Origin: Trebouxia sp. TZW2008
Taxonomy: Eukaryota > Chlorophyta > Trebouxiophyceae > Trebouxiales > Trebouxiaceae
Assembly: GCA_002118135.1 (NCBI GenBank)
Contig: BDIU01000110.1
Span: 62,001 to 126,000, forward strand
Length of the DNA stretch: 64,000 bases
Direction of reading: 5' to 3'
Shown one piece after another: positions 787 through 60,200 of the stretch. A program made the translations under genes and the position numbers. A model generated the notes under the pieces. It had not been told where the DNA came from. It saw nothing but the letters and a program-made list of their open reading frames with translations, and searched no databases. The stretch's first letter is position 1. Each line of letters begins with the position of its first letter.

Positions 787-3700
787 ATGCTGAATAGACA
801 CAGCCCTGGCTTGCAAAGTCACGAGCGATCAGTGTTGATCGATGCAGAGGTCGCAGGAGCACCCCTCGGCAATCTGTCTGTCGAGCCGGCTCAATATCCG
901 AAGGTAACTTCGGCACCTACAACACAGTTGGCAAGCTCCATCGCACCTTAAGAAACGCGCGATATAGCTGCCGCAGGCTGAAAATCAGCCTGCATGTATT
1001 CTGTACGTCGCGTTGCGTCTGCCAGCCGATGTGTGTCATGCTTTGCTTACTTGCATCTTGCACATGACCACAGAACTTTCCGTGTATCGTTCAAAAAGCT
1101 CTGCCCTGTAGGTCCGCAGAGACGATAGTGTTGTGGAAGACTTGCATGGCACAAAGGTTGCTGACCCATATCGCTGGCTAGAAGACCCAGACAGCAAAGA
1201 GACTCAGCAGTGTATATCCAGCTGTTGCACTTTGCCCATGCTGAATTCCATGCTGTACATAGAAGCAAGAGCAGCTTGAGCAAATGCCGTCTGCACACTG
1301 TCTCATCTGACTGTGGTGCTGCAGTTGTTAGCGATCAGAACAAGTTGACAAGCAGCGTTTTGAGTCAGTGTGAGACGCGCACGCAGTTCAACGAGCTGCT
1401 GACAGAGCTATTTGACTACCCTCGTCACTCATGCCCCCGGCGTCATGGCAAAAGGTCAGCCATGAAATGCACCTGATCGCTTGCAACAGACAAGCAAGCA
1501 AAAGCATATGTCAGGATCAGCTGCCATTGCATGGCTCAGACAAAAGCTATGCAAGCATGCACAAACAGTGCTGCCATAGCTGTAAGCACGACTTTCTAAT
1601 GTATACATGCGGTGTGTGCGTTTGTAAATTTTTGAAAAGCATGTGCAGATTCTGCGACAGCTTATCAGATCTCAAGTTCTTACAGACTCTTGCTGCATTA
1701 TGGCATCAAGAGCATTGGCCTCTGTGTGCCAGGCTGCCTGCACTCAGGGCATAGCACCTGCAGCAGTTTGTCTACAGAATGCTGTGCGCAAATCCATGTT
1801 ATTATTAGCTTGCCCTTTAATGCAGGTACCACTACAGCTACAACACAGGGCTGCAGGCTCAAAGCGTGCTGTACAGTCAAGGCAGCCTTGAGGGAGAAGC
1901 CAGCATCCTTTTAGACCCAAACAAACTCAGTGATGACGGCACGGTAGGACAGCTCCTTTAGAATATGACGTGAGTCAGCCAAAGCCCACAGTCAAAACGT
2001 TCTGGTCCCTCCATTGTGAGAGTCAGGAAATAGGCTTGATCTCTACCCCTGTGGCAGTCAGTCACACCCTCAACCTAAGCTGTGTGATGACACATGATGA
2101 CGCTCGTTGTGCCTCTGTTGGGCAGCAGCACAGACGCACATGTTGCATAACTATATTGTGCAAATTTCTCGCTGAAAGCAAACACAGATACACACGAGAG
2201 CTTGCACATGGACCTGGAATACACTGCTGAACATGAACATGAACATGAACATGAACATGCACATGAACATGAACATGAACATGAACATGAACGCAATGAA
2301 AAACGTCAACATGGAGAGATTGACTGCTGAATCAGTTGCCTGACCCAGGCATGTGCTGATGTAGGTGGCGCTCAGTAGAACTGCGTTCAGCAAAGACGGC
2401 AAACTGATGGCGTACACTTTGAGCAGTGGCGGGTCAGACTGGGTGACTATCCATTTATTGTCTGTGGACCAGCAGACAGGCAAAACCTCAGACAAGCAGG
2501 ACAAACTAGAGTACGTCAAGTTTAGCAGTTTGGCCTGGACTCATGACCATAAGGTGAGCTGTATCATTTGCCATTTCTTTTCATTATCCTATAGCATCAG
2601 CAGCAGCATCAGCAGCAGCAGCAGCAGCAGCAGCAATCAAGGTAATTTGGGCACAGAATCCAACATCACTTAAAACACAATCACCTGCAACTCCTGACCT
2701 TTTGCTTGGCTGCTGTTCAATGCCATTCTGCTCCTCGAACCACACGGGATGTATGCCTCAGCAGTTGAATGCTTTGACTGTTGATTCAGGGCTTCTTTTG
2801 CAACAAGTTCTGAAAGCCGAAGCAAGGTGATTTGGGCACAGAAACTGACATCAACTTGATGCCTCATCATGCAATCCCTGACTTTTTGCTTGGCTGTTGA
2901 TTTGGGGCTTCTTTTGCAACAAGTTCTTGAAGCCAAAGCAGGAAAAATGGGCACCAAAAATGACATGACATTGAGCATCTGTAAGTGCAGACACGTTTCC
3001 TGATCCTGTGACTGATCCTCGCATTCAGGGCTTCTTTTACAACAAGTTCCCAAAGCCAAAGCAAGGAGACTTGGGCACAGAAACTGACATCAACTTGAAC
3101 CAGCAGCTGTGCTATCATGTTTTGGGACAGCCCCAAGGGCAGGACGCTGTGGTGTGGGCCTGCCCTGACCACCCTGCCTGGATGCTAGGGGCTGAAGTTA
3201 CTGATGACGGCAGGTCTGCTCTTCCTCTTCTGCCTCTCAAACGCCCTTCCTCTTTTGTCTCAAAACGTATGCGTGGCAGCTGTGCCATCATGTTTGGGGA
3301 CAGTCCAAGGGCAGGAGGCTATGGTGTGGGCCTGCCCTGACCACCCTGCCTGGATGCTAGGGGCTGAAGTTACTGATGATGGCAGGTCTGCCCTTCCTCT
3401 TCTGCTGTAATGTTGCTGATGATGGCACTTGTCTTGCTCTTCTGCATCAAAGCTACGTGCATCAAACCTGCAATTTGGGTCTGCCCAGATGACCCTGCCT
3501 GGGTGCTGGGGGCTGGAAAAACTGATCATGGCAGGTCTGCCCTTCCTCTTCTGCCTCAAAGCTTCATGCATGAGTCAACTGTAATGACACATGACCAATT
3601 CTCCATGGACCAACTACCAAGGGCCCTTAACCTGCCTCAATCTTATTGATGAAGGCAGGTCCACTTCATTTGTCTTTTGCCTAAAAGCTCCATGCGTGAA

Positions 3701-57200: not shown

Positions 57201-60200
57201 TCCAGAATGAAGCTGTACAGCTCTTGGTCTCTGGTGGCTGCCATGAGTAAGCGCCCAGGTATCCAGATTGCCTTCTCTTCATCTGCTGCCATGTCTTCCT
57301 CATGAGGTTGGCTACAGTAGGCCCTGCAAGACAAGGTTCCCACTGAAGACCTGTCCCCATTGTGTGCAAGCACTCAGGTATAGGAAATTATGCAAGCACT
57401 CAGGTAAGGGAATTGTCCTCGCTTTGTTTGCTGCGACGCCTTATTGAACTTGACGGCAGTAGGCCAGGCAAGACAAGATGCCCAATTCAGTCCAGCCTCA
57501 CGCTGTGCGAGGGCTGTACCAGTGTCCAGATCGCCTTCTGTTCATTTGCTGTCATGTCTTCCTCCTGAGGTTGGCTATAGTAGGCCCTGCAAGTCAATGT
57601 GCCCCCATTGTGTGCAAGCAGTCAGGCATAGGAAATTGTGCAAGCGCTCAAGTAAGGAACATGCCCTCTCTTTATCTGCTCTGTCGCTTTCATGAGGTCA
57701 ACGGCAGCAGGTCCTGCAAGACAACATGCCCAGTCAAAAGCTGTCCTCATTTGAGCAGGCGCTCAGGTATGAAAATTGTCCTCTCTTCAGCCACTGTGAT
57801 GTCTTCCTCCTGAGGTTGACTGCAGTAGGCCCTGCAAGACATTGCGCCCACTTTACTCCTACTCTCATTGGGTCTGATGACAACAGCCTGGAATGTCCAC
57901 AAGCATACTACAAATCAGCTGTTGCTGGACAGGAGTCAAATGCTTTGGAAAACACCTGAAGACAGCTGCAAGCTATGTGGCTGCCCCCCTCATCAACGCA
58001 GCCTTCTTATGGCAGAAATCTGGAGTCTATTTACAAGCACTGCAAAGGACACACATGTGGGCAAGGGACAATGAGTGCCAAGAAAGTACACAAAGACAGC
58101 TGCAAGCTATGCGCCTGCATGTCATCTCACAGTGGCCTTCCTGAACCAAAGTTGTGAAGTCTCTTCATCAGCACAGCAAAGGATTGACAGCAAGGTAAAA
58201 TATGCACCAGGAAAGTACCTGAAGACAGCTGCAAGCTGTGTGGCCGCTTCCCTCCTGACAGACAGCTTCTTGTCCCTGAGTCTCTGGCTGACAGCCTCCA
58301 TAGCTTGCATTGTCACTGTCTGCATGAACAGCACTCCCTGTTTGAGCAGATATATAAATTACAACAAGAAAATTATGCTACAGAGCTTGTGACTTCAATT
58401 GCATGCGACCACTGGCTGCTTAGCAAGAAAAGAAGGAAATCCTGTACTCCAGAGCTTGCACTTTCACTTTCTGTATGCACACCATAGCCTGCTTAGCAGA
58501 AAACGATTGTTGAGAAACGTTAAGCTCCAGAGCTTGCAGTGCCGTCGTCTGCATGCAAACCACTCCCTATGAACCAAAACAGGGATAAAAAAAGAGAATT
58601 TCATGCTCCAGAGCTTGCAGTTTCGCTTTCTGCATGCACAGCATTGTCTGCTGAACCAAAAGACGGAAAGAAAAAGAGCATTATATGCTCCAGAACTTGT
58701 AAAGTCAATATCTGCATGCACACCATTGCTGACACATTGGTTTAGCTGTGATGAAGACAATCTTTGACATGGGCAAAGCAGCTTGACGGCCAGCGCTGTG
58801 GTGTACCATTCCAGCAGCAAATTGTCGTGCAAGTGCTTTCATTGTGCAGACAATGGACAGAAATGCACTCAGCAGGGGTTCGACTCATAGGTTCCCCTGA
58901 TGTGGCAATGTCTGCGACATAACGCCGACGCCACATAGCTGGGTCAAGTCACTAGCAAGCGTGTGAACGATGAAGACTATCCAGACACACAGCGTTACCT
59001 GAGGCTGTGTAGCAGCAGCTTCACAGATCGCACTGATGGCTCGTGACCTGACCTTGTCTTCAAAGTCCTGAAGCCGCTCTTCAATAGCTTCCAGGACCTA
59101 AAGGACAGGACTGTGTCAGTGGACAGCACATGATGCTCTTCAGCATCAAGATGTGGTGCAACATATCACTTGTGGGTCACCGCAAGATACTCCCAAGCAT
59201 GACAATGTGTGTCTGGGTGTCATGGTCATCTGAGATGATGCTTTGGCAGTTAGAACCATGGCATGTTCAGGCACAAGGTGGGACGTTCAGAAGTGTTGCA
59301 TATCTTTGCAAAACATTGTGAGTCACCGTGTAAGTAAGTTTCCACAAGGCATGCTGATCACATCTTGGTAAGAAGAACAGAAAGAATGTATCTGAATCGA
59401 CGTGTTGAATCAACTATGTTGGATCAACTGTGTTGGATTATCATGTGTGAGGACTCACCTTGACTGCAGCTGAATGGGGGCAGGTGTGGAGCATCCGGCT
59501 GCACTGGTGGATGACGCTCAGCCGCACTTCTGTCTGTAGCACCAATGCTGCATGTAAGTATTGTACGTCACGTGCAATGAATGAACATCTAACAACTTGA
59601 CATTTGGCAGAATGCAGTAAATGCATGGGTCCTACCCACCTGTTGGCATATGCTGTTGCAGTTGGCAAAAAACAGTTGTAAAAACAACACTTCATGGGTC
59701 CCAGGCATCACTGACTTGACTTTATACATGTACCTTTTGATCTTTGCAACGCCTCAGAAACTCCTCAAACAGGTAGCCATGCTCTTGATCCATGTCTGAG
59801 TCAGGGAATGCAAAAAGCTTGCCCAGAAGGTCTATGGCAGCAAGCCTGTGGCCCTCATCTTCCAGTTGAAGCTCATGCGCAAGCAGAGGCAGGACTGGCA
59901 GCAAAGTCTGTGGACACGCTTGGTACACCTGCAAAACTTACAGGCGCCCATAAAGTCAAGCACTACTGAGCTTTGTGCGGTATGTCGAGCTGTTGTTGTA
60001 CTCACTGCAGCAAGGTGTGCAGCAGCCATCATCAGGCCTAGCGTTAGTTGATGCTGTTTGGAATGCGATGCCCTGTTTTGGCTGACTACAGGATGTATGC
60101 AATGTTTGTCAGCTTTCATGCGAAGACTAAAGGCTGCATGGCTGTTTGATGTGAGGTGTTCTGCTCTGGTCTCACTGACTGCAACAGTATGTGCATTATT

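Follow-up and report, generated by a model that had tools for sequence, protein, structure and literature searches.

Background

Do introns grow from the edges of the exons that they separate, and if so, is something aimed at the splice junctions themselves? The question is raised by the window, i.e. the whole stretch of 64,000 nucleotides that was analysed, which is part of the 68.5-Mb genome of a green lichen alga of the Trebouxia type and for which an earlier note had described tandem arrays of units straddling exon-intron junctions. The reading to which we give a probability of roughly 0.55 is that of recurrent local junction duplications that preserve the mRNA, that are multiplied and renewed through exchange with the conserved edge of the exon, and that then decay neutrally. 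This would be a route of intron growth distinct from transposons and from random repeats. Each copied edge with its splice site (a decoy, as opposed to the live site) would be a dated copy that evolves freely afterwards, and thereby provide paired neutral and selected copies inside one gene. Since many introns offer several near-identical sites, the arrays also form a natural experiment in splice-site choice: rows of decaying decoys should force the splicing machinery to pick the right border, and the cell apparently does use the correct one.

Gene maps

Three genes were analysed, namely those encoding a prolyl oligopeptidase (PREP), a PGAM fusion and PDS5; the exon maps were tested for consistent phase or by comparison with relatives, and repeats played no part in fixing the exons. 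The exons of PREP and PGAM were identified by visual reading and are consistent in phase, which is the sole basis of the PGAM map; of the 13 PREP exons made by hand, a spliced alignment to a relative returned 11 unchanged. The 27 PDS5 exons were taken from a spliced alignment to a relative, two of them being set manually against it: exon 42920-43786, which the alignment split within its low-complexity tail, and exon 45420-45633, where it had linked a decoy (45759-45842) to 45420-45549. The latter call is uncertain, because the residues of the relatives are slightly closer to the decoy. Zero-length rows of the spliced alignment were removed. With that one PDS5 exon uncertain, proteins of relatives align through the real exons of PREP and PDS5. 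A de novo gene finder repeatedly took decoys for exons, and automatic pipelines applied to Trebouxia may do the same. The ZIP gene, in which no arrays had been noticed before, indeed has none at its four junctions; these were read by eye and are provisional, since the joined frame holds four stops. An RNA-family search found no family.

Duplication clusters and decoys

Self-alignment of the three genes, from which alignments with an offset below 25 bp or a length below 35 bp were dropped (below 25 bp length for decoy mapping), yielded 27 local-duplication clusters, one of which is exonic (43334-43480) and was left out of the counts. A real splice junction is covered by 24 of the other 26 (21 by at least 8 bp and 3 by 5-7 bp), and the remaining two are ambiguous, one abutting a donor (6594-6884) and one matching an exon interior (51201-51457). 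No purely intronic cluster with a unit of at least 60 bp was found by self-alignment in PREP, PGAM or PDS5. Two purely intronic arrays of shorter units, beneath the limits of the self-alignment, lie at 37350-37410 (31 bp) and 57365-57414 (26 bp). Similarity within the window is local, save for CAG tracts and two pairs of short dispersed repeats, and nearly all of the 118 pairs in its self-alignment are direct and local (2 inverted, 4 far apart).

Decoy mapping gave 70 positions at 26 of the 94 junctions (17 acceptors, 9 donors). The decoy statistics omit exon 54011-54191 (2 junctions and 6 positions, in near-whole-exon copies) and the shifted position 58399, which leaves 63 decoys at 24 junctions, every one of them (63/63) intronward. 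Decoys within one array share one junction type, exon 54011-54191 being the exception, and show no fixed number or spacing. Per array, the longest copied exon part measures 35-176 bp, with a median of 80 (24 arrays, one per junction).

Much of the earlier description is borne out by these counts: the exon-edge arrays in the oligopeptidase, PGAM fusion and PDS5 genes are real, the hydrolase array at 16295-16617 was seen by eye and has a Pfam match on its exon, and there is support for introns that have grown by recurrent local duplication of units spanning a junction, with copies of widely differing age and many decoy sites. The breadth claimed for the arrays, as filling introns in most genes, must be narrowed; decoys do occur at 26 junctions, but 68 of the 94 have none mapped and 29 of the 47 introns are array-free. 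The median intron length is 955 bp with arrays versus 319 bp without. Nor does the unit consist solely of the exon edge and its splice site, as had been proposed, for intron flank is copied too.

Table 1. Exon-edge arrays and related copies in the window (clusters from self-alignment, decoy positions from decoy mapping).
Feature	Position	Strand	Decoys and remarks
PREP, acceptor-edge array before exon 3029-3213	2635..3098	+	2789, 2905
PREP, donor-edge array after exon 3029-3213	3103..3557	+	3385, 3534; first copy 94% over 131 bp; decayed copies reach about 3850 (by eye and alignment)
PREP, acceptor-edge array before exon 4429-4671	4049..4601	+	4064, 4217
PREP, acceptor-edge array before exon 6394-6587	5776..6473	+	5796, 5954, 6104
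PREP, 67-bp array abutting donor of exon 6394-6587	6594..6884	+	ambiguous, scored as miss
PREP, acceptor-edge copy before exon 7396-7598	7211..7495	+	7224
Alpha/beta-hydrolase, 122-bp array at acceptor, exon end near 16359	16295..16617	-	junction by eye, exon by Pfam
PGAM, donor-edge array after exon 33787-33986	33925..34694	+	34213, 34353, 34493, 34584, 34681
PGAM, acceptor-edge array before exon 36064-36188	35586..36119	+	35624, 35771, 35918
PGAM, acceptor-edge array before exon 38492-38704	37650..38572	+	37659, 37800, 37991, 38120, 38299
PDS5, acceptor-edge array, exon 45420-45633	45484..45993	-	45842; live copy not certain
PDS5, acceptor-edge copy, exon 46248-46499	46423..46671	-	46665
PDS5, donor-edge array, exon 47488-47593	47032..47560	-	47095, 47243
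PDS5, acceptor-edge copy, exon 47820-47958	47850..48138	-	48131
PDS5, donor-edge array, exon 48965-49158	48299..49044	-	48368, 48560, 48687, 48826
PDS5, acceptor-edge copy, exon 48965-49158	49061..49348	-	49312
PDS5, young acceptor array, exon 49629-49742	49670..50604	-	49956, 50170, 50384, 50593; unit 214 bp, units 87-97% identical in pairs; no other array of the window is both young and full-unit
PDS5, copy of interior of exon 51162-51299	51201..51457	-	44 bp from acceptor; ambiguous, scored as miss; a separate decoy maps at 51625
PDS5, acceptor-edge copy, exon 51890-52220	52138..52464	-	52459
PDS5, donor-edge array, exon 53207-53403	52876..53253	-	53041
PDS5, two-sided copies, exon 54011-54191	53843..54360	-	unit ~160 bp, near-whole exon; outside decoy statistics
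PDS5, donor-edge array (cluster 54510-55223), exon 55115-55379	54428..55223	-	54428, 54651, 54814, 54969
PDS5, acceptor-edge array, exon 55115-55379	55210..56173	-	55571, 55763, 56014, 56165
PDS5, donor-edge array, exon 57028-57323	56246..57148	-	56270, 56430, 56524, 56690, 56868
PDS5, acceptor-edge array, exon 57028-57323	57244..57852	-	57465, 57586, 57713, 57831
PDS5, donor-edge array, exon 58219-58319	57947..58254	-	57955, 58089
PDS5, acceptor-edge array, exon 58219-58319	58296..58729	-	58470, 58548, 58629, 58711; 58399 dropped as shifted

Decay of the decoys and their probable renewal from the live edge

Changes private to one decoy are spread almost evenly over codon positions 1, 2 and 3 (58/56/71). 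Columns in which at least two decoys differ from the live exon and the decoys are not unanimous number 17/17/44, and the decoy-decoy third-position excess is 1.62 (bootstrap 1.27-2.14, 16 arrays). Judged by their sequences, the decoys resemble non-coding snapshots of the live exon from different times. Columns common to several decoys could partly reflect copying of decoy from decoy.

When bases 11-40 to either side are compared, 14 of 16 arrays show less decay in the exon part of the unit than in the intron part, instead of the even decay along the unit that a single event predicts. The youngest array (49742) is among the two that lack the asymmetry. Given free decay from one event, the intron flank has decayed beyond the expectation from the exon part; this excess is attributed to renewal, but several copies may instead never have held much flank. 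That the exon edge alone was copied, without intron flank, is rejected by the flank identity at acceptors: ungapped decoy-live identity is 0.50-0.69 at 12 of the 14 intron positions 7-20, versus 0.24-0.38 for unrelated live acceptors. A permissive local alignment, with similar mismatch in the flank and at third codon positions and ~3-4 times more gaps in the flank, was set aside, as scoring of this kind may align sequences that are unrelated. Only 3 of the 11 arrays with at least three decoys have their best match to the live edge in the nearest decoy, a share close to that of random order, which argues against stepwise growth from that edge.

The preferred reading would connect these patterns as follows. 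A tandem duplication of ~80-240 bp would span an exon-intron junction, whereby the intron grows and keeps a decoy, and this would be tolerated since the exon remains complete and retains its own splice site next to it. Further copies would be taken from the edge of the live exon at various times, a pattern visible in the decoys for which unequal exchange or gene conversion is the probable process. Being held constant by coding selection, the live edge would continue to serve as a template for recombination at a stage when an intron-only repeat has long since decayed, and exon-edge arrays would persist and dominate for that reason. Single decoys would then decay largely irrespective of codon position, as is seen for their exon part.

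Excess of clusters at junctions

A junction-targeted mechanism is possible as well. Breakage or re-copying would then occur preferentially at junctions, e.g. through R-loops or paused polymerases during co-transcriptional splicing; we regard such targeted births as unlikely, and can only tentatively entertain the corresponding view of a Trebouxia process, coupled to transcription or splicing and aimed at junctions, by which introns would lengthen at their edges and come to store dated exon snapshots. Targeting would account for the junction position of 24 of the 26 clusters in the window, where uniform placement expects 9-13 (P 5e-10 to 9e-6), for the lack of purely intronic clusters of long unit in the three genes, and for copied exon parts that, at their longest, are never below 35 bp. 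Moreover, 13 of 23 arrays hold a copy with at most 8% mismatch at codon positions 1 and 2; such copies are young, so that intron-only copies of that age should remain visible. All four full-unit duplications of at least 86% identity in the window and 17 sampled loci carry an acceptor edge, two of the four being judged from de novo exon calls and by eye.

The excess weakens, however, once detection is considered. Exon parts are still recognisable in 54 of the 63 decoys and intron flanks in 22, which amounts to a ~2.5-fold detection advantage, and with this advantage P rises to 5e-5 to 0.013 for the window. When a sampled locus, L013, is added, P is 0.015 to 0.43 under a strict rule (26 of 34 clusters) and 9e-5 to 0.030 under a looser one (30 of 34), in which four L013 clusters that end within 5 bp of a junction are scored as matches. 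L013 is no blind sample, since it was chosen from 17 stretches for its nearly complete gene and many arrays, and its clusters were grouped by eye. The eight in its gene comprise two that cover a junction by at least 5 bp on both sides, the four just mentioned, one that matches an exon interior and one that is purely intronic (3612-3897); the locus is similar to the window, with this intronic array as the one exception, and the array itself speaks against targeting as well as against the preferred reading. So does the spread of copied exon lengths, from which it follows that the exon side has no fixed endpoint. The earlier phrase 'anchored at splice junctions' is thus borne out only in part: the excess over uniform placement is strong, but it loses force when the detection advantage is allowed for.

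Two further tests concern the same excess. A consensus splice-site test on 62 arrays in the 17 loci revealed no significant excess at acceptors (percentile 0.545, z 1.2) or at donors (percentile 0.509, z 0.25); it does not support the claim and, the motifs being weak, is treated as uninformative. In an early coverage test with de novo exon calls, acceptors exceeded the intron average (0.29 versus 0.24 in the window, 0.18 versus 0.10 in the loci) and donors fell under it (0.07 and 0.03); mapped exons replaced this test because the gene finder had mistaken decoys for exons.

Chance tandem duplication followed by survivorship, in which random local duplications are purged if they change the mRNA, remain visible longer if they contain a conserved exon edge, and undergo neither renewal nor targeting, is a doubtful account of the arrays. 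By geometry alone, about a quarter to 60% of random 80-210 bp units cross a junction, depending on intron lengths, and P exceeds 0.05 in 3 of 9 settings at a 3-fold detection advantage and in 7 of 9 at a 5-fold one. The layout with acceptor copies before and donor copies after the exon, observed in all 63 decoys, is automatic here: any junction-crossing tandem duplication that leaves the mRNA intact produces it, so that it stands as an observation and not as the separate rule that it had been taken for. Against chance alone stand the third-position signal in shared columns, the absence of an order by distance and the exon/intron asymmetry, which together point to repeated input from the live exon.

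Splice sites of the decoys

Maintenance of the decoys as pseudo-splice sites with a regulatory role in splicing or intron retention, in the manner of mammalian decoy exons, is improbable. The dinucleotides are kept in 54 of 63 decoys (AG in 33/38, GT/GC in 21/25), the site score equals or exceeds that of the live site in 25 of 63, and bases next to the splice site are more alike than the flank is. This retention is, however, biased upward because decoys were discovered through junction-crossing alignments, and the sites are on average weaker than the live ones (mean score 4.8 versus 5.6 for acceptors, 3.0 versus 4.3 for donors). The near-even private changes and the freely varying number and spacing argue in the same direction. 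Use of 51 of the 54 usable decoys would shift the frame or add a stop. Under the preferred reading the decoys would be by-products and not regulated exons, and the cell would have to keep picking the site joined to the complete exon.

An assembly artefact (mis-joined repeats or haplotype copies) is hardly credible, for although tandem arrays commonly cause assembly errors, the copies diverge to widely varying degrees and their differences are codon-structured, and local duplications cover 3-41% of 14 of the 17 sampled loci, each from a different contig.

Comparison with known systems

The arrays fit the class of tandem genomic duplications, as the copies are adjacent, co-oriented and homologous along the unit; full-unit homology is present in four young duplications. 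In the literature accessible to our search, part of it in excerpt, nothing on point was found on intron growth from exon edges. A close case is intron gain by tandem duplication, in which a new intron is made from exonic AGGT, as in potato RdRp and ATP2A1 (PMC4974935). As described there, it likewise involves local tandem duplication with splice signals inside a gene and leaves the protein unchanged, whereas the Trebouxia introns already exist and are extended from their edges time and again, which leaves decoys in place. The Trebouxia copies hold the exon edge and intron flank with the splice site, which implies that the intron was already there and did not originate from exonic AGGT.

Intronic tandem repeats and minisatellites share head-to-tail units, growth in copy number and decay, but the Trebouxia unit carries a live exon edge with its splice site and a codon-structured exon history. 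Tandem exon duplication copies a whole exon with both splice sites within a gene; here too exon sequence is copied in tandem inside the gene, but only in part and with one edge per array (exon 54011-54191 excepted). Introner elements are dispersed families that create introns; they have in common with the arrays an intron-related growth of repeats in algae, whereas the Trebouxia units are local and not common to different genes of the window. Decoy exons control intron retention in mammals, and resemble the Trebouxia decoys in being non-productive splice sites within introns; the latter lack clear coding constraint and differ in origin and number.

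Arrays at splice junctions

Local duplication in three of the mapped genes, PREP (prolyl oligopeptidase), the PGAM fusion gene and PDS5, forms 27 clusters, one exonic and 26 non-exonic, and 24 of the latter cover by at least 5 bp a live junction, i.e. one of a real exon, the other two being ambiguous at an exon edge. Within the limits of the cluster search none of the 26 was purely intronic in these three genes; two intronic short-unit arrays (31 bp and 26 bp) exist below those limits. Mapping junctions through the alignments yielded 70 decoy positions (copied splice junctions), which belong to 17 acceptor and 9 donor junctions, 26 of the 94 in all. 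After one exon whose near-whole copies confused the mapping and one shifted position had been dropped, 63 decoys at 24 junctions entered the decoy statistics, all 63 on the intron side. Recognisable local copies make up 37% of the intron sequence of the mapped genes, and the median intron length is 955 bp with arrays (18 of 47) versus 319 bp without (29 of 47). The earlier note held that acceptor copies lie before the exon and donor copies after it; this layout is indeed found, but it adds no separate evidence, since any duplication that preserves the mRNA yields it automatically.

Exon maps

The exons of PREP and PGAM were read by eye, and with three single bases corrected their phases are consistent throughout; protein-to-genome alignment of a relative's protein exactly reproduced 11 of the 13 exons in the hand-made PREP map, the two versions of the first and last exon disagreeing at their outer ends. 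PDS5 exons were derived by the same kind of alignment from two relatives, the first giving 36 rows (zero-length and tail artefacts included), of which 32 recur with the second; the 27 exons used, two of them set by us against the alignment, join into a coding frame of 1621 residues free of stops. The ZIP exons, read by eye, are not clean and contain 4 stops. Proteins of the relatives can be aligned across the real exons, one PDS5 exon being uncertain, and counting the additional first exon of PREP from the alignment the junction set comprises 94 junctions of 47 introns. Identity to a protein of Trebouxia sp. C0009 is 84% for PREP, and PDS5 is 70-71% identical to proteins of Trebouxia sp. C0004 and C0005. 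The N-terminal half of the PGAM product is phosphoglycerate mutase-like (PF00300) and its C-terminal half matches F420_oxidored/NADP-binding (PF03807, E 1.9e-6, above its cutoff). The window covers positions 62001-126000 of contig C107. The source genome measures 68.5 Mb in 527 contigs and the window has a GC content of 49.2%; both values lie near those of Trebouxia assemblies in print, for which PMC11523091 gives 63-74 Mb and 49.6-51% GC.

Loci outside the window

Seventeen stretches of 10 kb were picked by contig number, content unseen; their local-duplication coverage ranges from 0 to 41% and is zero in three. A GMC-type oxidoreductase gene on one of them (L013), chosen for being near-complete and rich in arrays, was mapped with proteins of three relatives, and the mapping used for the window found decoys of 3 of its 28 junctions. 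Its eight clusters, grouped by eye, comprise two that extend at least 5 bp to each side of a junction, four that end within 5 bp of one, one that is exonic and lies 36 bp from the donor of that exon, and one that is intronic. On a second stretch (L011), a predicted galactose mutarotase has 101 residues between two aligned blocks versus 36 in a solved relative, and these residues hold repeated exon-edge peptides, as would be expected if decoys had been mistaken for exons.

Chance, persistence and targeting

If a tandem unit could fall anywhere that leaves the mRNA intact, 9-13 of the 26 clusters, depending on the assumed intron lengths, would be expected at junctions, against 24 observed (P 5e-10 to 9e-6; here and below clusters are treated as independent). 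The excess is real with respect to such naive placement. Its main bias is persistence: of the same 63 decoys, 54 retain recognisable homology in the exon flank and 22 in the intron flank, so that exon-bearing copies are visible about 2.5 times more often. Corrected for this factor, P for the window becomes 5e-5 with current introns, 0.007 with arrays removed and 0.013 with array-free introns. Adding L013 gives, in the same order, 0.015, 0.29 and 0.43 under a strict count (26/34), and 9e-5, 0.014 and 0.030 with its near-junction clusters counted (30/34).

That duplications are born preferentially at junctions is not proven. In its favour, all four full-unit duplications of at least 86% identity in 234 kb bear an acceptor edge (two being judged only by eye and from exons called de novo), 13 of 23 arrays include a copy so young that intron-only copies of equal age should show, and in each of 24 arrays the longest stretch of exon copied measures at least 35 bp. 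However, testing 62 arrays from the sampled loci for splice motifs gave no significant excess, and when coverage was tested at an early stage with exons called de novo, that of donors lay below the intron average.

What the copies record

Codon positions were scored in the live exon frame over 1023 columns of 16 arrays with at least two decoys. Changes private to one decoy are nearly even over positions 1/2/3 (58/56/71), and decoys thus evolve after birth much like non-coding DNA. Columns in which at least two decoys, not unanimously, differ from the live exon number 17/17/44, so that differences between decoy groups look like changes made in the working exon; changes private to the live exon number 7/4/15. 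Together with the decoy-decoy third-position excess of 1.62 (bootstrap 1.27-2.14, 16 arrays), this pattern implies that the live exon gave rise to decoys, or overwrote them, on several occasions. The nearest decoy scores best in 3 of the 11 arrays with at least three decoys, about random order, and in 14 of 16 arrays decay has gone less far in the exon part of the unit than in the intron part (bases 11-40 each side), the youngest array being among the exceptions; both features are compatible with exchange between decoys and the live edge. The intron flank of decoys is homologous all the same: among acceptor intron positions 7-20, 12 of the 14 have an ungapped decoy-to-live identity of 0.50-0.69, versus 0.24-0.38 among unrelated live acceptors.

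Recurrence from the live exon, near-neutral decoy decay and longer array-bearing introns are borne out by the analysis; as their origin we favour a scheme in which a tandem duplication across a splice junction would seed an array, and the array would then recombine repeatedly with the live exon edge, by unequal exchange or gene conversion. As a template, that edge would be held constant by coding selection, so that edge-anchored arrays would keep recombining while intron-only repeats decay. Titles and abstract beginnings, with most subscription journals outside the scope, contained no description of exon-edge arrays, a weak negative; in PMC12712428 'tandem' and 'exon' are absent, and 'intron' and 'splic' match once each, both in the reference list.

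Splice sites and other features

The dinucleotide is intact in 33 of 38 decoy acceptors (AG) and 21 of 25 decoy donors (GT or GC). Mean site scores of decoy versus live sites are 4.8 versus 5.6 for acceptors and 3.0 versus 4.3 for donors, and 25 of 63 decoys equal or exceed their live site. In 51 of the 54 usable cases, splicing at the decoy is predicted to cause a frameshift or introduce a stop. The live site would be expected to be chosen through exon definition, since it is the one joined to a complete exon. The 47 mapped donors comprise 39 GT, 6 GC and 2 of neither kind (possibly errors of the hand-made ZIP model); the share of GC-AG introns is high.

Features located in the window
Position	Strand	Feature	Remark
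33094-38704		PGAM gene	7 exons, single uninterrupted coding frame
33210, 36704, 37266	+	GC donors, PGAM gene	
62258-62371, 45420-45633, 44092-44248	-	PDS5 exons with GC donors	
45759-45842		PDS5 exon-edge decoy	residues fit relatives' proteins slightly better than live copy
43334-43480		21-bp x7 in-frame repeat	basic C-terminal tail of PDS5; sole purely exonic cluster among mapped genes
18760-19111		about three 102-bp repeats, exonic-looking	within long open reading frame region
18002-18913, 18917-19765		two frames enclosing the 102-bp repeats	one stop between
11771-12055		minisatellite cluster, apparently intergenic	20-50 bp units on TGGGCA-like motif
5051-5130, 50996-51075		short dispersed repeat	about 80-90 bp
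3929-3998, 27498-27567		short dispersed repeat pair	possibly of the 5051/50996 family

The PDS5 decoy at 45759 may preserve an earlier state of the exon, or it may be an alternative exon in use. The dispersed repeat at 5051 and 50996, SINE-like by size, has at least 40 matches in the genome (80-100% identity, both strands, itself included), a lower bound in that 40 of 95 candidates were scored.
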